The notes beneath the pieces are model-generated. The model was not told the origin of the DNA, ran no database searches, and worked only from the letters and a program-made list of their open reading frames with translations. A program made the translations under genes and the position numbers. Source: Clostridia bacterium (GTDB taxonomy: Bacteria > Bacillota > Clostridia > UBA1381 > UBA9506). Taken from it: a stretch of 34,776 nt of DNA. The DNA lies in NCBI GenBank assembly GCA_017396465.1, contig JAFQLU010000089.1, forward strand, positions 1 through 34,776, written 5' to 3'. Shown here in pieces: positions 6,805 to 34,776 of this stretch (the stretch's first letter is position 1; every line of letters starts with the position of its first letter).

Positions 6805-9189
6805 TTATTTCAGTTCAACTGCCTTCGCAACAGGAATTGCGCTACCAAGCGAGCTCCATGCAAAGATTTTCGCGCGTGTTGCAGTACCGTCATTTGCGAC
6901 AGACATGGTAGCAACATTATTCTCACTTGCGAAGCTGTCAACCGCAAGCAGTTCATCGCCGTTATACAGTGCGATGATGCCGTCAAAGGTTTCCACTTCG
7001 TCAGTTTCGGGATAGTAAATAGCCGAAGCTGTTACAGTCTCTTCCAGACCGCTTGTGAATTTTAAAGCAAAGCCTGTGATTTTCACAGCTTCTGTTTCAG
7101 CAGATTTTGCAACAACTTCACCTGCTGCATTTTTACCTACAACAACCGCCTTATAGTATTTACCTGCTTCTCCTACGAAAGAACCGGTTGCATTTACATC
7201 TTCCAGCACATAGTCTACGCCGTTTTCAGATACATACAGTTCGTAAACCTTCTGTGTGGTAGCCGCAACCTGTGCACCGGTTTTCTCAGAAACAGTAATT
7301 TTGTTACCGTCTGCGGAAATGGCGGTGTCATAATAGGTTGTACCGATTTCTTCAATGGCAATGTCGTCAAATGCCATGATTGCACCATTTGTAGGACCGA
7401 AAGAGCCCAATCCGAGATAAATCTGTCCACTGACCTGTCTTGGCTTTGTGGTGAACTCATTTGTATATTCCATCCAGTCCGTTGTCACCGCTAAAGGTTT
7501 AAAATTATTAATGTAACCCCAATCTGCAGTTGACGCATTGTACCCTTCTTCACCGTCGATTTTACCATTTGCATCAACTTTCGGCCCTAAATTGTACATT
7601 CCGCCTAAAGAGCCGGTATTTGTTGTATAGGTTTCATCAGGTGCCATTTTTGCACGGAAAGTCAATCGATATGTTGTAGATGCTTTTAAATCCACACGAG
7701 TTACCAGACGACGGTTTGTCCCCGTTGCGCCGGCAGCATTACTGTCAAACGTTACCTTTAAATATTTGCCATGTGTTCCATTTGTAGCATCGTCAGATAC
7801 GATTTCTAAATGCGTATATGCATCATCGCCAAAGAACAAATGATCGTACAATTTTGCACCTGTATACACCTTTTCCTGGTATGCATTATACGACTTGGTG
7901 CCGCTTATTGTTGTTGATGTGCCGATTTCGCCGTTTTCAAAATCGCCGCCGTATACGATGTTATCCAGTTTTTCCAGCTTGATGCTGTCCACGTTATAGC
8001 CGAAGTATTTGCCCTGCGCGCAGATACCGATTCGATCAATCGTAACAGGTTTCTGAGAAGCAGTTCCGTTGACACCCATCGTATCCTTGGTTTTAAATAC
8101 AAATTCCACTTTCTTATCACCACTTCCGCTAAACGGGAACTGATACGAAGAACCACTATGCATATCAAACAATGCGCCGTTCACATCATCCTTAATATAT
8201 AAGTTGAAGTAATAATCGATGTTCGAAGCAACATTCACATTAGCTGTCAACTTATAATACGTATGAGGCATTACGGTAACATTCTGGAAGAATACACCGC
8301 TGGTACCGGAACCGGTGCAATAAATTTTACCGTCTTTTCTGCCTGCATTTGAGCCATTCCACATATAGTATGCCTGATTGTGCCAGAAGAACTGCGCATC
8401 AAACTGATCAGAATACCAAATTTTGTCTTTGATGCCGCTTGCTGTATCCTCAGTTTTCGTAAATGCGCCGTTTGTCAGAATTTCAGTTTCCTGATTGGTT
8501 GTTGTATCCGTCACAGTTCTGAATAATGATTCTTCAGAAGGGTTAAAGAAATCTTCGTATGCGATTACATTATCGCTCACATAAGGTTCTATCACGAATT
8601 CATCCATCAGGTAAGAACCAATAGCATTCACACGGAATTCAACCGTTGCTCCGCTGTAACCGTCTGCGTCAACATCTTTTGTGTGCCAGTTGTTTGCTGT
8701 TTCACCGTCAAACTTTGCTTTTGCTTCTGCGTGCATCGTATAATTTTCCAGATAGTAACGCGTGTAGCCGTCTGCTCTGGTTTCACCAACTGCAAGATTT
8801 ACTTGTTCAAACGCAGCTTTTACAGTGGAATCCTTCGGATCTGTTGTATTATGATAAAAAATAACAGACGGAGAAGAAATCACCGCATCCAGGGGTTTCA
8901 GCCATACAGAAACATTCATAACTTCACCCGGTCTGGATTTGAAGGGATACTGAACGGTACCACTGCTTGATGTCGTTGTGACCTTCAGCGCAGAAGATGA
9001 ACCTAATACGCCTCCGCCTACCAATTCTTTTTTTGCGGCAGAAGTCGTACCTAAAGCTGCATCCTCAGCAGTTTCAAAAGCAAGATGGTAAGATGTCTCC
9101 CTTTCAGGTGTCTCTGCCGCAACAGTCATTGCCGGAACAAGTGCTGTGAGCATAGTAACCGACAGTAAAATTGCTAAACGCTTTTTCAT
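6805..9189 (-). CDS. Secreted multi-module carbohydrate-binding-like protein (794 aa)
   Basis: Begins with a clear signal peptide (MKKRLAILLSVTMLTALVP..., cleavage near AAAET). Three beta-sandwich regions follow, at about residues 30-210, 215-405 and 410-610. The third looks like a CBM4/9-type jelly roll (YGGDFENG at its start; WMEYTNEFTT and AFDDIAIEEI at its end). Next come an Ig/FnIII-like segment (about 615-705, YELYVSENGVDY) and a C-terminal beta domain ending in TRAKIFAWSSL, a type often seen at the ends of large clostridial secreted proteins. I see no catalytic domain, no sortase motif, no dockerin and no SLH repeat. It shares its architecture with the two proteins encoded upstream. 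Start: AAGGAGG before ATG. It has its own promoter with twin direct repeats, and two hairpins follow the stop. The likely role is binding an extracellular glycan; the ligand is unknown. Confidence 0.82.
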   Translation of the reverse strand: MKKRLAILLSVTMLTALVPAMTVAAETPERETSYHLAFETAEDAALGTTSAAKKELVGGGVLGSSSALKVTTTSSSGTVQYPFKSRPGEVMNVSVWLKPLDAVISSPSVIFYHNTTDPKDSTVKAAFEQVNLAVGETRADGYTRYYLENYTMHAEAKAKFDGETANNWHTKDVDADGYSGATVEFRVNAIGSYLMDEFVIEPYVSDNVIAYEDFFNPSEESLFRTVTDTTTNQETEILTNGAFTKTEDTASGIKDKIWYSDQFDAQFFWHNQAYYMWNGSNAGRKDGKIYCTGSGTSGVFFQNVTVMPHTYYKLTANVNVASNIDYYFNLYIKDDVNGALFDMHSGSSYQFPFSGSGDKKVEFVFKTKDTMGVNGTASQKPVTIDRIGICAQGKYFGYNVDSIKLEKLDNIVYGGDFENGEIGTSTTISGTKSYNAYQEKVYTGAKLYDHLFFGDDAYTHLEIVSDDATNGTHGKYLKVTFDSNAAGATGTNRRLVTRVDLKASTTYRLTFRAKMAPDETYTTNTGSLGGMYNLGPKVDANGKIDGEEGYNASTADWGYINNFKPLAVTTDWMEYTNEFTTKPRQVSGQIYLGLGSFGPTNGAIMAFDDIAIEEIGTTYYDTAISADGNKITVSEKTGAQVAATTQKVYELYVSENGVDYVLEDVNATGSFVGEAGKYYKAVVVGKNAAGEVVAKSAETEAVKITGFALKFTSGLEETVTASAIYYPETDEVETFDGIIALYNGDELLAVDSFASENNVATMSVANDGTATRAKIFAWSSLGSAIPVAKAVELK

Positions 9190-9255
9190 GTTTTTCCTCC
9201 TTTTTTCAGATTTTTGTAATAGCTTTTTGTAACAGATGTCTCCCCAGAAATCTGT

Positions 9256-9281
9256 TGTACGTATAGAGGCCTATACGTATA
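9256..9281 (-). promoter_or_regulatory. Inverted repeat at the predicted 5' end of the 794-aa transcript
   Basis: TACGTATAG (9258-9266) pairs exactly with CTATACGTA (9271-9279) around a 4-base centre, and a G-T and a T-A pair extend it outward. The predicted transcription start is near 9282, so the hairpin would form at the very 5' end of the RNA. It could protect the messenger or be a repressor operator over the start site. Confidence 0.55.
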
Positions 9282-9288
9282 CAATTTC

Positions 9289-9317
9289 ATTTTATCATAC
9301 TTTTTTTCTTTCCGCCA
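9289..9317 (-). promoter_or_regulatory. Promoter of the 794-aa gene, weak -35 with extended -10
   Basis: On the minus strand: -35 region TGGCGG (9317-9312), exactly 17 bp, then -10 TAAAAT (9294-9289) preceded by TG one base away (extended -10). The -35 is far from TTGACA, which suggests dependence on an activator bound at the direct repeats ending one base upstream. The same layout occurs at 14820-14848. Confidence 0.6.
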
Positions 9318-9318
9318 C

Positions 9319-9362
9319 ACATTTCTTGCACAATTCGCGATTATTTTTCAACATTTCTTGCA
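9319..9362 (-). promoter_or_regulatory. Twin direct repeats, putative activator site (unit 2)
   Basis: On the plus strand ACATTTCTTGCA occurs twice without change, at 9319-9330 and 9351-9362, giving a period of exactly 32 bp (about three helical turns). The proximal copy ends one base before the -35 region. Two diverged copies with the same 32-bp period stand at 14850-14892 upstream of the other operon of the same gene family. Direct repeats touching a poor -35 are typical of activators such as the AraC family. Confidence 0.7.
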
Positions 9363-9363
9363 T

Positions 9364-9409
9364 AAAAAGACAAGGTGTAACAAAACAATTCATTTTGCTA
9401 CACCTTGTC
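9364..9409 (-). terminator. Rho-independent terminator of the 731-aa/1040-aa operon
   Basis: A 17-bp stem with one A-C mismatch pairs 9369-9385 with 9393-9409 (arm GACAAGGTGTA...) around a 7-base loop. On the minus strand it is followed by TTTTTATG. It lies 11 bases after the stop codon at 9421, and its T-tract borders the direct repeats of the next gene. Confidence 0.88.
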
Positions 9410-9420
9410 AAAATCTTATC

Positions 9421-12400
9421 TTATTTTAAATAGTCCAATGCAATCAGCTTGTCATATACCTTCTGCGCCAGTAAAGAATAGCCCACATCGCTTAAGTGCG
9501 TTTCGTCGGTATCGTCACAATATAAAGACTTGGGAATCTGCCCTTTTGCGATATATGCAAGGTCTGTATCCGTAGGCGTGATGCCTGCATCGGCCAAAGC
9601 CTGCTCGGATGCTAAATAGGGTTTCACATCCAGGAAGTTTTCGCCGAAAGCATCCTTCAGCTTTGCGTTGGTGTTATCCCATGCACTCGCCGCACCGGAG
9701 GTTAAGCCGATTACCACGAACTTTTTGCTTCCGGAGTGCGCAATCTGGGTTTCAATCAGGTCGATGAGTGCGTAAACATCTGCATCAGAATTGTCGTTTG
9801 CGGTGGTGTTTGCTGTAGTCCAGCCACCGTTGGTTCCGGTAAAGAAGATGTTCACATCGCCTTTGACGGAGTGTGCGTAAGGCACAAGCTTATCCCCTGC
9901 AGATACCGCAACCTCTTCGCCTGCTGTTTTTCTGGTAAATTTCGCCCAGTTTAACACTCTCGGCCAGACGGTGTTATTTACTTCCACGGAAAGGGTTCCT
10001 TCCACGCCGTTAATCACGCAGGGGTTCCAGCCGCCGGCGTTTACGTTTCTGGGCGTTACAACGCCGCCGTTTGAGGCTTCAAACTTGATTTCAACCGGCG
10101 TTTTATCTGCCGGAATCACAAAGTCTTCGGAAATCACGATATCCAAAGCACCCTGACGTGCCGCAATGGTGGTGGAGGTTTCGCCGCCAACACCCATGTT
10201 ATACACGGTAAGTCCCGTTAAATTTGCAAGTCCTACAGGGTAGGAATAGCTTGTTCCCTGGTTTCTGCCGTAGGTTAAGCTGTCGCCCCAGCAAGCGATG
10301 GTGTTTACCAATTTAAAGTCTAATTCGCGTGTTTCTGTTTTCGGCATGAGGGTTGTCATATCCCATACAAATGCTTTTGCCAGAAGAACGCCTTCTTCTT
10401 TGTCGGTGCTGAAAGATGCCACACCGTTTTCACTCGGAGCGCTTTCCACCTTCAGCATTTTGTTGTTTTCGCCATACTGTGCAACCACCAGCGTGAAGTT
10501 CTGCATTTCTCCGTTTTCAGAGAAATAGGATGCATTCGCCGAGATGGTTTTCTCTTCGCCTTTTAAAAACAGGGCAAAGCCTTCTGCGCGAATCACTTCG
10601 GTTTCAGCGCAAATGCCATTGCCTTCCTTTGTTTTGCCGGTGATTTCCACTTTTAAGAATTTGCCGCTATAGGAAGGCGAAACGGTGAATTTACCGTTTT
10701 GGGACTGTGCCGCTTTTGCGAAGTTCACACCGTCTTCGGAGATATATAAGGTATACAGAACACTCTTCTCATCCACGCCTGTGCCGTAGGATGCTTTAGT
10801 GGTAAGCTCTCCATTCTGATTTTCAAAGCTTACGTCACAGAAATTGTTTTCGATTTCTTCCACTACCAGCTCGTCTATCGCAATGGAAACGTCTGCTTTC
10901 GGCTGGAAGTTCGTAACCCCCAACAGCACCTCGCCAATCACCTGAAGATTCTGCGTGGTAAATTCAGCGGTCACGGTTTGCCATTTGTTTGTCAGCTTCA
11001 CCGTGCTGTGAATACTGTTGATATAGCCGTACCGTGCCGTTGCAGCATCGTAGCCCTCTTCGCCACTTGTCAGACCGTTTGCGTCCACTTTACCGATATT
11101 ATACATAGCCGCCAGGGTTTCCGTCTGTTCGCTATCGTCTGTTACCAGCTTTGCTTTAAAGGATATGCGGTGCGCCGTGTTTTTCTTAAGGTTTAAATAC
11201 CACACGCCGCGGCGGTTGTTATTGGTGCTTACCGCATCGGGATTATCAACGCCGGTAAAGTGCAGTTTCAGGTAGTCACCGTCGTCGCCGTTGGTGCCGT
11301 CATCAGCTACAACCTCTAAAACGGTATCCTCTCCGCCGCGTGCAACCACATCCACCATTTCGTTTCCGCTGTATGCATCTTTATATACTTTTGAGCCGTC
11401 TTCATTCACGGTGAGATTTTCCATATCACCGCCATAGATGCCTTCCTGCACCTTTTCGATTTTTAAATTATCTGCATACCAGATAACATAATCGCCACCG
11501 GTCACAAAGCCCACCTGCTCAAAGGGAACGCCCGTTTCACAATACACTCTTCCGGGATAGCTCTTGGTGCGGAACAGATATTCCACATGCTTGGTTTCGC
11601 CACCTGCAATTTCCACATCGGGGCCATACATATGACCGCCGGGAACAAAGCTGGACTGCTGCGAGGTTTCCATATAAAGGTAGGGTTTTACCACAATCGG
11701 ATAGCTTGCATTCGCCGTAATATCCGCAGAAATGCGGTATGTGGTTCCGGGCATCAGGTTTACATTGGGGAAATACACGCCGCGCATACCACTACCTGAT
11801 ACCTTTACGTTGCCCTTATCCGGCTGATATGCCGACTGAGGATGGGCAATCAGCTCCGCGGTATAGGTTTCGGAGGTACCTGCCGTTTCCGCTGTGGGGT
11901 TTGTGTAAACTGCTTTAATGTTGATTGCCTTTTCTTCAAAATCCTCATAGGCAACAAATTCGTCGCTTTTCTCAAAACGGATTTCATCTTCTAAATAGGT
12001 TATATCGCTTTGCGGCACACGAATGGTCATACGGGAGGATGCACCCTCCTGCTTTTTGATCGGCGCCTGATTGCTTCCGGGATACACACGGTCGCTGATG
12101 CGGTAGTTGTCCACATAATAGCGAACATAGCCATCCGATGCGGTTTCGCCCGCTTTTAAGGCAATCTGCTCCCAACCGGAGCCTGCAGAGCCGTCTTCCT
12201 TCACCGCCGGTGTGATAGCATACAGATACACAGATTTGATTTCACCGCTGACCGGCTTCAGCCATACCGATGCGTTATAGAGGCTGCCCGGCTCTAAATA
12301 CTGATACCACTGCACGCCGGCAACAGCGTTTTCCGTTGTAACGGACGCCGCACCGTTGGAGCCATGAACACCGTCGTCGGAAGGCGTGATAGCCACGTCC

Positions 12401-12543
12401 CATTCCCCTACTGCCAGAAAATCCGCTTCATCTTCAAAGGCAAAATGAACTGATTCCGGCATAACTGTTTCTTCTGCGCTCACAGGAAGCATCACACTTA
12501 CCAGCATGCACAGCATCATCAAAAGGGATAACACTTTTTTCAT
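9421..12543 (-). CDS. Secreted carbohydrate-binding-like protein with C-terminal SGNH/GDSL esterase domain (1040 aa)
   Basis: Signal peptide (MKKVLSLLMMLCMLVSVMLPVSA), then three jelly-roll CBM-like regions (about 28-195, 196-370, 371-565), an Ig-like segment (about 570-650) and a beta domain ending AKAFVWDM near 735. After ELDFK an SGNH hydrolase begins: CWGDSLTYG with nucleophile Ser755, block II GVGGETS, block III GTNGG with Asn905, and block V DETH with Asp1013 and His1016. All four SGNH blocks are present, so it is probably active, for example as a glycan deacetylase or acyl esterase. A beta-rich insert of roughly 95 residues lies between blocks II and III. The first 735 residues are a close paralogue of the 731-aa protein encoded 50 bases upstream in the same operon. 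Start: AAGGAGG eight bases before ATG. The substrate is unknown. Confidence 0.87.
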   Translation of the reverse strand: MKKVLSLLMMLCMLVSVMLPVSAEETVMPESVHFAFEDEADFLAVGEWDVAITPSDDGVHGSNGAASVTTENAVAGVQWYQYLEPGSLYNASVWLKPVSGEIKSVYLYAITPAVKEDGSAGSGWEQIALKAGETASDGYVRYYVDNYRISDRVYPGSNQAPIKKQEGASSRMTIRVPQSDITYLEDEIRFEKSDEFVAYEDFEEKAINIKAVYTNPTAETAGTSETYTAELIAHPQSAYQPDKGNVKVSGSGMRGVYFPNVNLMPGTTYRISADITANASYPIVVKPYLYMETSQQSSFVPGGHMYGPDVEIAGGETKHVEYLFRTKSYPGRVYCETGVPFEQVGFVTGGDYVIWYADNLKIEKVQEGIYGGDMENLTVNEDGSKVYKDAYSGNEMVDVVARGGEDTVLEVVADDGTNGDDGDYLKLHFTGVDNPDAVSTNNNRRGVWYLNLKKNTAHRISFKAKLVTDDSEQTETLAAMYNIGKVDANGLTSGEEGYDAATARYGYINSIHSTVKLTNKWQTVTAEFTTQNLQVIGEVLLGVTNFQPKADVSIAIDELVVEEIENNFCDVSFENQNGELTTKASYGTGVDEKSVLYTLYISEDGVNFAKAAQSQNGKFTVSPSYSGKFLKVEITGKTKEGNGICAETEVIRAEGFALFLKGEEKTISANASYFSENGEMQNFTLVVAQYGENNKMLKVESAPSENGVASFSTDKEEGVLLAKAFVWDMTTLMPKTETRELDFKLVNTIACWGDSLTYGRNQGTSYSYPVGLANLTGLTVYNMGVGGETSTTIAARQGALDIVISEDFVIPADKTPVEIKFEASNGGVVTPRNVNAGGWNPCVINGVEGTLSVEVNNTVWPRVLNWAKFTRKTAGEEVAVSAGDKLVPYAHSVKGDVNIFFTGTNGGWTTANTTANDNSDADVYALIDLIETQIAHSGSKKFVVIGLTSGAASAWDNTNAKLKDAFGENFLDVKPYLASEQALADAGITPTDTDLAYIAKGQIPKSLYCDDTDETHLSDVGYSLLAQKVYDKLIALDYLK

Positions 12544-12592: not shown

Positions 12593-14788
12593 TCATTCTG
12601 CCGCTTCTGTTTTGGGCTTAAGCGTTTTCATGTCCCACACAAATGCTTTGGCACAGGACGCTCTTTCTTCCTTTGGCACAGATAGTGTTGCCCCGTTTTC
12701 TTGGCTTTCTGCATAATCAATCTTCACCATCTGATTTTTCTCGCCGTACTGGGCAATCACCAGCGTGAAGTCTACCGTTTCTCCGTTTTCGGGGAAATAG
12801 TAAGACTGCGCATGAAAGACTCCCTCATGCTCTTTGAGCGCCAGGTTATATCCTTCCATGCGAACGGAATTGGTCTCTGCCAAAATGCGCATTCCTTCCG
12901 GATTGATTCCCGTCACTTCCGTTTTTACCATTTTTCCGCCAAAGAACGGAAGTACCGGAAAGGTTCCGTTTTCGGATTCTGCCACTTTTGCAAAATGCTC
13001 CCCGTCTTCGGAAATATAAAGCGTATGCAAAATGCTTTTCACGCCTTTGCCATAGGAAGCATTTGTAACCAGCTCGCCGTTTTGCAAACTTAAGCTTGCA
13101 TCATGAATTTCGTTTTCTATTTCTTCTATGCTTAGGTCATCCATTGCGATGGTGATGTCCTCATCCGGTCTGAAGTTTGAAATGCCCAAAAGCAGTTGTC
13201 CCACCTCATGGCGGTTCTGCGTGGTAAAGACGCCTGAAACCTTCTGCCACTGATTTGTCAGTTTCACTTTGCCGTTGATGCTATCAATATAGCCATACTT
13301 TGCTGTGGTGCTGTCAAAGCCGTCTTCGCCGCTTATCCGTCCATTTTTATCCACCTTGCCTATATTGTGCATTGCCGCCAGATACGCCGTTTTTTGCACA
13401 TTCTCCGTCACGATTTTTGCACGGAAGGAAATGCGGTATTCCGTATTCTTTTTCAGGTTCACATACCACACACCGCGACGATCGTTGGCGTTTGGTTTTA
13501 CGGCATCGGGATTTTTATTCCCCGTAAAATGCAGTTTGAGATAGTCACCAAACACGCCGTTTGTGCCGTCATCTTTTATCGGCTCTAACAAGGTATCTTC
13601 ACCGCCGCGCGCCGCAACCGTTGTGAGTGTTTCGCCAAAGTATGTGTTCTGATACACCTTCGCGCCGCTATCATTCACAGTAAGGTTTTCCATGTTGCCG
13701 CCGCAAACGATTTCCGGCACCTTTTCGATTTTGAAATTGTCGGCATACCAGATAACATATGTTCCCTTGGACACAAACCCGATTTGTTTATAAAGAATGC
13801 CGCTTTCGCTGTATGCCTTTCCCGAATATTCACTTGTGCGGAACAGATATTCTATATGTTTGGTTTCGCCTGCGGCCAAATCTGTAACGGGACCGTATGT
13901 ATTCTCTGCCCCTTCTATGCATAAAAAGGGTTTTACGGAAACCGAATAGTTCGCGTCAGTCGTGATATCTGCCGAGATGCGGTATGTGGTTGCCGGCAAA
14001 AGAGACACATCCGGAAAATAGAGACCGCGCTCTCCGCTTCCGGCTATCAGCACATTTCCCTTTTTCGGCTGATATTTCGTTTGCGAATGAGGAAGCAAAT
14101 TCACATGGTAGGTTTCAGAGGTTCCTTCGGTTGTTCCTGTGGGATTTATGTAAATAGCCGGAATTCCGCTTGCCTTTTCATCAAAGTCCTCATAGGCAAC
14201 ATAATCTCCTGCCGGCGCTAAGCGAACCTCGTCCGCCAGATAAAGTGCACCGTTTGTCGGCACACGCACCGTCACACGGGATACTGCACCTTCCTGCTTT
14301 TTCAAAGCAATGCTTTCGTTTCCGGGGTACACACGGTCGCTGATACGGTAGTTTTCCACCGAGTAACAAACATAGCCGTCCGGCGTTGATTTTCCTGCTT
14401 TTAACGTAATTTGCTCCCAGCCGGTAACATGTTTGCCGTTTTCGCCCACCCCTGCCGTGATGGCAATGAGGTACACAGTTTTGACTTCTCCGCTGATTGG
14501 TTTCAGCCACACGGATGCGTTATAAAGCCTGCCCGGCTCTAAATACTGATACCATTGAATACCGGCGGTATCAGAGCTTGTCTGAATCTGCGCCGCGCCG
14601 CCGGAGCCGCACACGCCGTCTATAGATGGCGAAATACTTATATCCCACGCACCCACCTTTAAAAAATCCGATTCATTCTCAAAGGAAAAATGCACCGACT
14701 CAGGCCACATCGTTTCATCCGCACAAACCGGAAGCAACATGCATGCCAGAATAAACAACGCCATCACAAACGATAGAACCTTTTTCAA
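12593..14788 (-). CDS. Secreted multi-module carbohydrate-binding-like protein (731 aa)
   Basis: Signal peptide (MKKVLSFVMALFILACMLLPVCA), three CBM-like jelly-roll regions (about 28-190, 191-360, 361-558), an Ig-like segment and a C-terminal beta domain that ends shortly after AKAFVWDM. It aligns along its whole length with residues 1-735 of the 1040-aa protein downstream (shared WYQYLEPG, YNASVWLKP, NYRISDRVYPG and GVWYVNLKKNT-type stretches). It stops where that protein continues into the SGNH domain, so the pair is a tandem duplication with or without the enzyme. No catalytic domain or anchor is seen. The start is a TTG at 14788 with GGAGGAGG six bases before it. It is the first gene of the two-gene operon, behind the twin-repeat promoter. 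Confidence 0.84.
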   Translation of the reverse strand: MKKVLSFVMALFILACMLLPVCADETMWPESVHFSFENESDFLKVGAWDISISPSIDGVCGSGGAAQIQTSSDTAGIQWYQYLEPGRLYNASVWLKPISGEVKTVYLIAITAGVGENGKHVTGWEQITLKAGKSTPDGYVCYSVENYRISDRVYPGNESIALKKQEGAVSRVTVRVPTNGALYLADEVRLAPAGDYVAYEDFDEKASGIPAIYINPTGTTEGTSETYHVNLLPHSQTKYQPKKGNVLIAGSGERGLYFPDVSLLPATTYRISADITTDANYSVSVKPFLCIEGAENTYGPVTDLAAGETKHIEYLFRTSEYSGKAYSESGILYKQIGFVSKGTYVIWYADNFKIEKVPEIVCGGNMENLTVNDSGAKVYQNTYFGETLTTVAARGGEDTLLEPIKDDGTNGVFGDYLKLHFTGNKNPDAVKPNANDRRGVWYVNLKKNTEYRISFRAKIVTENVQKTAYLAAMHNIGKVDKNGRISGEDGFDSTTAKYGYIDSINGKVKLTNQWQKVSGVFTTQNRHEVGQLLLGISNFRPDEDITIAMDDLSIEEIENEIHDASLSLQNGELVTNASYGKGVKSILHTLYISEDGEHFAKVAESENGTFPVLPFFGGKMVKTEVTGINPEGMRILAETNSVRMEGYNLALKEHEGVFHAQSYYFPENGETVDFTLVIAQYGEKNQMVKIDYAESQENGATLSVPKEERASCAKAFVWDMKTLKPKTEAAE

Positions 14789-14819: not shown

Positions 14820-14848
14820 ATTGTATCACATATTTTTTAGCTTCGCTA
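14820..14848 (-). promoter_or_regulatory. Promoter of the 731-aa/1040-aa operon, weak -35 with extended -10
   Basis: On the minus strand: -35 region TAGCGA (14848-14843), 17 bp, then -10 TACAAT (14825-14820) with TG one base upstream. It is followed by another TATAAT at once. Spacing and non-consensus -35 match the promoter at 9289-9317 exactly, and a direct repeat ends one base upstream. Confidence 0.6.
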
Positions 14849-14849
14849 C

Positions 14850-14892
14850 ACAATTATTGCAAAATCAGCAATAAAAATTCAACAATTCTTGC
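14850..14892 (-). promoter_or_regulatory. Twin direct repeats, putative activator site (unit 1)
   Basis: On the plus strand ACAATTATTGC (14850-14860) and ACAATTCTTGC (14882-14892) are 32 bp apart. They match the ACATTTCTTGC pair at 9319-9361 in sequence, orientation, period and distance to the -35 region. The site is squeezed between the terminator of the SLH gene and the promoter. Confidence 0.65.
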
Positions 14893-14894
14893 AC

Positions 14895-14927
14895 AAAAAG
14901 CCTCTGACCAAAGGGTCAGAGGCTTTT
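14895..14927 (-). terminator. Rho-independent terminator of the SLH-protein gene
   Basis: A perfect 14-bp stem (14896-14909 with 14914-14927, core GCCTCTGACC) with a 4-base loop. On the minus strand it ends in TTTTT. It begins one base after the SLH gene's stop codon and closes the uvrA-ispD-ispF-SLH transcript. Confidence 0.9.
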
Positions 14928-33930: not shown

Positions 33931-34776
33931 TTACTTGGTTACCGTAACCTTCGTTGAAACGGTTTTCAGTATGCCTTGCTCGATATAATAATATGTGATT
34001 GTTGCTTCGCCTGCCGCCTTTGCGGTAACCTCTGTCGTTGTTGCCGTTGCCACATTGGGATTACTGCTTGACACATACCTTTCTACCATGTTCATGGGAT
34101 ACAGCTTTCCTTTTCTGGTGTAGCAATAAGGAATATTGCTCACGGTTTCGCCTGCGCTGATTTCGATTATATCCGTCGCCACAATGCGCTGGAGACCATA
34201 CTTGAAATTCTGCGCGTGTGCCTTTGTTACGCCGGCATTTTCGATAATTTCCATAGCTTCCGGCTGCCAACCTTCTCCTATGGGAGGCGTTGCATCCTCA
34301 AAGCGGATATTGGTGCCTGCGTTTCTGTGATTCATGGTGGTGGAATAGTTATCCCTTACCGTAATATCATGAATGGAGGATGTCCAGATATGAAGCCACA
34401 CAGGTGCATTATTGTGAGAACCCAGCTTTCCGGTCCACACCGCGTTCATGGACATATCAATAACATTTTCAGAAATTTCCCAGAACGCAGAGCCTTCGTC
34501 GGGATAGATGGCACCGTGCATGTTGCCGATATCCTCAAAATAGTTTCTGGTGAGCTGATTGAGGTTTTCGTTGGTGCCGCCCGTCATACCGATGGTATAA
34601 ATACCGCCGCCATCGTAGAGGTTATCATTCAGCACGCCGTGAATATAGTTTTCGCCCAGCACCAAGTTTTCCGTTGCGGTACCGGTATTTTCATGACTCG
34701 ACCAGCCGTAACCGATATGCATACCGGAATATGCACCGCTATAGATTTCGTTGTGTACCACGTTGGTATTTTTGGG
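33931..34776 (-). CDS. Partial secreted right-handed beta-helix protein with C-terminal Ig-like (Big_2) domain
   Basis: The 3' end of a gene that runs off the window; 281 codons are visible and the true start is outside. The apparent first codon at 34761 is an internal valine (the frame reads on as PKNTNVVHNEIYSG). The visible N-terminal part has the repeating N-x-I/V-x-x-N strand rungs of a right-handed parallel beta-helix (VVHNEIYSG, LVLGENYIHG, LTRNYFED, SENVIDMS, VRDNYS). DGGGIYTIG and the GYGWSSHENTG loop are typical of pectate-lyase-like or GH141-like carbohydrate-active proteins. The last 90 residues look like a bacterial Ig-like group 2 domain (VSSSNPNVATATTTEVTAKAAGEATIT). Probably a secreted glycan-active enzyme or binder. 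No catalytic residues can be assigned from this part. Confidence 0.8.
   Translation of the reverse strand, partial: PKNTNVVHNEIYSGAYSGMHIGYGWSSHENTGTATENLVLGENYIHGVLNDNLYDGGGIYTIGMTGGTNENLNQLTRNYFEDIGNMHGAIYPDEGSAFWEISENVIDMSMNAVWTGKLGSHNNAPVWLHIWTSSIHDITVRDNYSTTMNHRNAGTNIRFEDATPPIGEGWQPEAMEIIENAGVTKAHAQNFKYGLQRIVATDIIEISAGETVSNIPYCYTRKGKLYPMNMVERYVSSSNPNVATATTTEVTAKAAGEATITYYYIEQGILKTVSTKVTVTK

Follow-up and report, generated by a model that had tools for sequence, protein, structure and literature searches.

A 32-bp tandem repeat as the predicted operator of an AraC/XylS-family regulator of plant-glycan genes in an uncultured gut Clostridia bacterium

What controls two adjacent transcription units whose promoters carry the same pair of repeats? 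The window, by which we mean the whole 34,776-nt stretch analysed (contig C59 of an uncultured gut Clostridia assembly of 1.96 Mb in 140 contigs, 55% complete), has TGCAANAANTGT twice with a period of 32 bp before a gene for a 794-aa protein, and again before an operon for 731- and 1040-aa proteins, the coding strand being the minus strand. The first-pass annotation had described this twin repeat, with the proximal copy followed by one base, a TRGCGR -35, 17 bp and a TG-extended -10, and had postulated a dedicated regulon for extracellular glycan binding under an unseen regulator. The 32-bp repeat was confirmed base for base at both promoters, and the description of the promoter elements is true of both. 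As we discuss below, the repeats are probably the operator of a 285-aa AraC/XylS-family protein encoded on another contig, a reading drawn from sequence comparison.

The two promoters have a common layout, [TGCAANAANTGT]-N20-[TGCAANAANTGT]-N1-[-35]-N17-[-10]. Before the 794-aa gene, the AraC-type half-site TGCAAGAAATGT occurs at 9351..9362 (distal) and, 32 bp away, at 9319..9330 (proximal), both on the minus strand. A single G separates the proximal box from the -35-like hexamer TGGCGG (9312..9317, -), which matches TTGACA at 2/6 places, and 17 bp further lies the -10, TAAAAT (9289..9294, -), preceded by TGn. Before the 731/1040-aa operon, the distal half-site is TGCAAGAATTGT (14882..14893, -) and the proximal one, again 32 bp away, is TGCAATAATTGT (14850..14861, -); they are followed by a G, the -35-like hexamer TAGCGA (14843..14848, -; 3/6 of TTGACA), 17 bp, and a -10, TACAAT (14820..14825, -), also preceded by TGn. 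Each pair begins where an upstream terminator ends: the T-run of the intrinsic terminator of the 1040-aa gene (9369..9409, -) touches the distal box of the 794-aa promoter, and an upstream gene's hairpin and T-run, GCCTCTGACC..GGTCAGAGGC (about 14899-14925), precede the operon promoter. Both promoters are thus insulated and lie just ahead of their genes. In the window, the box pair (at up to 3 mismatches) was found twice against 0.01 expected, and none of 100 shuffles reached two; a single box was found 8 times against 5.1 expected, which is not significant. The signal is the pair, not the single box.

The products are related to one another. The 794-aa protein (6805..9189, -) has a signal-peptide-like N-terminus and no Pfam match of its own; it is homologous to the 731- and 1040-aa proteins at 31% identity, and a narrow single-protein search of genome contigs found no homologue of its gene. 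The first gene of the operon (12593..14788, -), with a TTG start behind AGGAGG, encodes the 731-aa CBM_4_9 protein, and the second (9421..12543, -) the 1040-aa CBM_4_9 protein, which is 60% identical to the first and has a weak GDSL/SGNH match below the curated cut-off. The leader of the 794-aa gene is about 93 nt long with two stable hairpins of 9 bp and 10 bp (9230-9282, -), and that of the 731-aa gene is short, about 25 nt; Rfam returned only sub-threshold matches to the window leader, which are taken as chance. Since the three proteins are paralogues (60% and 31% identity), and since two other promoters of the host, on contig C33, are near copies of each other, the window promoters could be alike through joint duplication of gene and promoter, with no regulation implied. 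We regard this as extremely improbable. Aligned with each other, the two window promoters agree at 92% and 85% of positions within the boxes, 58% across the spacer and 69% from -35 to -10. The flanks are near chance level: for 60 bp on the upstream side the identity is 42%, and for 60 bp on the downstream side 28%. This bears out the earlier remark that the surrounding bases differ. Moreover, on four other host contigs, and in other families of the class, the pair is found ahead of genes that are mostly unrelated.

Scanning the host genome for the box pair at no more than one mismatch gave 5 matches, against 0 for a reversed-pattern control. When exact boxes were allowed any gap of 5-35 bp, only the 32-bp period occurred, and no 21-bp version of the pair was found elsewhere in the host. 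When the proximal box was scanned for together with the promoter, the same 5 sites came back at 0 mismatches, plus sites on contigs C26 and C33 (C33b). The pair recurs in the host only at promoter position, with a 32-bp period at all six clear sites, where the proximal box is 1 bp away from a weak -35. In a leave-one-out test, the six 74-bp sites scored 32-68 bits, against 4.8-15.3 bits for the best background among 250,000 positions. C33b, scored without its sister site, does not stand out from background and is the weakest member. Matches at 3 mismatches on C40, C72, C81, C111 and C119 and at 2 mismatches on C48 were set aside as likely chance. The host hexamers match TTGACA at 2 to 5 of 6 places in the -35 and the -10 consensus at 5/6. 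The promoter description given in the first-pass annotation needs correction for the wider regulon: TTGCAR or TTGAAA is found at the -35 more frequently than TRGCGR, and 4/6 host promoters have the extended TG.

About five further host promoters carry the pair, and most of them serve genes whose products bind plant polysaccharide or cleave it. Of the genes that the first-pass annotation expected behind further pairs (secreted CBM, SGNH or beta-helix), examples were found on C133 and C26, and C33 has an RGL11-like gene in that position. The C133 target, truncated by the contig end, combines CBM_4_9 with a GH141 insertion domain (GH141_M) and a weak beta helix. A beta-helix fragment at the end of the window (33931-34776, -) is closely similar to the C-terminal part of this protein (VVHNEIYSGAYSGMHIGYGW) and represents a further paralogue, whose promoter lies off the contig. 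The C26 target is a 1152-aa SGNH (GDSL) protein with a weak CBM_4_9 match. Its site (C26:12465) has the distal box exactly 32 bp upstream of the proximal one, which sits in the loop of the upstream gene's GAGAGTTTCA..TGAAACTCTC terminator (L052:12500-12545); since the proximal box forms the hairpin loop, one stretch is both operator and terminator loop. On C33, the first site (C33a) precedes the RGL11-like gene (RGL11_C match), and C33b (C33:10253), a weak, diverged copy of the C33a promoter with a 30-bp period, precedes a gene for a 355-aa protein of no family. Next to these two genes are one for a secreted-type protein of 835 aa and one for another AraC (L008:7663-12944). Rfam at the gathering threshold gave no match at the C50, C133, C33 and C26 loci. 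The upstream regions of other CBM-like family genes in the host are without the pair, and the regulon thus takes in a subset of that family. The idea of a dedicated regulon stands; its restriction to extracellular binding does not, as the targets include cleavage as well as binding and the C33 products have no obvious signal peptide by eye.

The remaining site points to the regulator. Proximity of a pair to an AraC-type gene had been named as a possible support for the regulon, and on C50 the pair adjoins a divergent gene for a 285-aa AraC/XylS-family protein (G000:C50:1618-2472, -; the two-HTH AraC DNA-binding domain, PF12833 at 74.5 bits, PF00165, and PF02311 AraC_binding), about 70 bp from its start. 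The pair lies between the box promoter and the araC gene with its TTGACA-17-TATACT promoter, and the distal box abuts the TTGACA, so that autoregulation is probable as well. The box promoter itself faces no protein gene; RNA started there would run for about 100 nt to a strong 13-bp hairpin and T-run (L006:2621-2735), and may be what is left of a lost operon, or else a small RNA. The first-pass regulator thus has a likely name in the C50 AraC, with the pair beside its gene and beside homologues elsewhere. The host has 63 AraC-type (PF12833) matches, about one per 31 kb, and some relatives in its order give more than 100 AraC candidates. With 63 such genes in the host, another AraC could share the site, such as the 266-aa AraC at C33:6813-7613, whose cluster also contains two sites. 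We nevertheless consider it unlikely that another AraC-type protein is what binds the boxes: with one araC per about 31 kb, sharing a cluster with a site is not telling, the C33 gene is without a pair of its own, and among 29 other AraC loci of the host that were examined no box pair scores above 17 bits, whereas such a pair is present at the C50 AraC and at ten of its homologues outside the host.

Homologues of the C50 AraC were sought in 120 relatives, in the host's order, in genome contigs (with a 3-row AraC alignment) and in 391 genomes of the class, the class-wide search using an HMM built from the C50 AraC and three homologues. Ten homologues outside the host, those closest to the model, have the pair beside their own gene, with a period of 21 bp in five (L137-L141), 31 bp in four (L181-L184) and 32 bp in one (L185, on araC's own strand). 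The 11 box-bearing araC loci, host included, score 20-39 bits, against at most 15.8 for 36 other AraC homologues (321 bp upstream), and the layout of box, 1 bp, -35, 16-18 bp and -10 is kept in 11/11. Because it was run after the box had been defined, the class-wide search amounts to a blind test: the pair stood beside araC in 6/6 loci absent from the order search (L180-L185, with L180 and L139 covering one and the same contig region), and the already-known homologues in G022 and G003 were without it. Some homologues in the HMM had been chosen for their boxes, and the weightiest evidence therefore comes from the loci outside it (L139/L180, L141 and L181-L185). In the relatives examined, the pair was found only beside homologues of the C50 AraC. 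The 32-bp pair pattern gave 0 matches in about 200 relatives, a strict pattern including TTGAA in the spacer, which also missed the host C33 site, gave 0 in 120 relatives, and the pair is absent from two other, smaller genomes of the host's genus. One match, G091:C18, was set aside for its 3 mismatches and lack of a clear promoter downstream.

Response regulators, too, can bind direct repeats that abut the -35, and a two-component pair is present on C33 (18099-19960). A response regulator or other non-AraC activator is all the same a very improbable owner of the sites, since no two-component or other activator gene lies directly beside any pair, and in every other genome in which it was found the pair adjoins an AraC gene.

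The assignment to the C50 AraC has points against it. The protein is only 29-34% identical to the box-bearing homologues, and similarly distant homologues (L114, L115, L116 and L058) have no boxes upstream. A further point is that the C50 box promoter leads into the short terminated transcript instead of a protein gene. In the tree, nine box-bearing AraCs form one fully supported clade with the host AraC outside; the host protein and that of L185 adjoin this clade, where the tree is poorly resolved and five boxless AraCs also fall. Three changes of box label are needed, and a single box-bearing clade is not rejected (AU p = 0.29).

The best reading of these sites is that an AraC/XylS-type activator would occupy two half-sites set in tandem at a distance of three helical turns, next to the -35; periods of 21 and 32 bp correspond to two and three turns. 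Two monomers would sit on the same DNA face, the proximal one against the -35, and the bound regulator would bring RNA polymerase to promoters that could not work on their poor -35 alone, as in class II activation at XylS/Pm. At the Pm promoter of Pseudomonas, the repeat period is 21 bp and the XylS ligand is aromatic. We infer activation from the poor -35s, the good -10s and the position of the boxes, which lie upstream of the -10 and do not cover it; AraC-family activators are described with this layout in PMC8579813 and, for XylS/Pm, in PMC5481539. The XylS sites, too, are repeated in direct orientation, each with box A (TGCA), N6 and box B, the half-site being TGCA-N6-GGNTA (PMC9722767), whereas the distal host sites are TGCA-N6-GTNGA-like with a 32-bp period, and neither the GGNTA box B nor the 21-bp period was found. 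According to the title of a cited study, XylS and RNA polymerase have overlapping sites at Pm, and the host proximal box is 1 bp from the -35. The host system would work like XylS, but it is not XylS.

The closest known kind is the set of AraC-family carbohydrate regulons of Firmicutes with tandem-repeat operators, such as those reconstructed in Caldicellulosiruptor bescii (PMC8579813, with PecR, PecR2 and HemR for pectin). By their description, they are alike in having an AraC-family regulator, two 7-11-bp repeats at 21 or 32 bp upstream of the promoter, and local control of polysaccharide genes, including those for pectin. In contrast, the host regulator is predicted to reach unlinked operons on five contigs, and the period varies among relatives of the host AraC: predicted binding repeats have periods of 21, 31 or 32 bp at all clear sites, and the weak C33b copy has 30. 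RhgR/RhaR-type regulators of rhamnose and rhamnogalacturonan genes in Bacillales and others (PMC3870299) are likened to it by family, period and genes; their direct repeat has a 21-bp period, as in five relatives here, and the host period is 32 bp. Tandem repeats of 21- or 32-bp period are a known form of AraC-family carbohydrate operator from PMC8579813, which searched for exactly these two periods, and from PMC3870299 for 21 bp. An AraC-type glycan switch of this kind is therefore already known; the regulon itself is new, of a well-known type.

As judged from RGL11, GH141 and GH88/105, the ligand is probably derived from a plant glycan, with a fragment of pectin or rhamnogalacturonan the likeliest, and the regulator would switch on a regulon for such glycans. 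The pectin-type matches are RGL11_C on C33, GH141_M on C133 and PF07470 beside araC elsewhere; CBM_4_9 and SGNH are not substrate-specific by sequence. In the box-bearing relatives the usual divergent neighbour of araC is a GH88/105 hydrolase: it is PF07470 (GH88/105) in L137, L138, L140 and L141, and in L182-L184 it has the same sequence motif as GH88/105 genes. An N-terminal domain with an H-x-H-x-H-Y-E run is common to the host AraC and the GH88/105-linked AraCs, and a related ligand would fit its retention. It is conceivable, if somewhat less than probable, that an AraC clade which ordinarily serves a divergent GH88/105 operon was rewired in the host's lineage, in which the GH88/105 partner beside araC was lost, the C50 site starts only the untranslated RNA of about 100 nt, the AraC runs scattered, mostly secreted glycan-binding or -cleaving genes, and the clear operators are one turn longer (32 bp) than the 21 bp of same-order relatives.

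Where an uncultured gut lineage has 63 AraC genes, it is seldom possible to say which regulator controls which genes. Here a regulator, an operator and a target list are proposed together for its glycan foraging. The occurrence of the same box at 21, 31 and 32 bp beside related regulators also provides a natural test of the tolerance of AraC-type dimers for whole helical turns.
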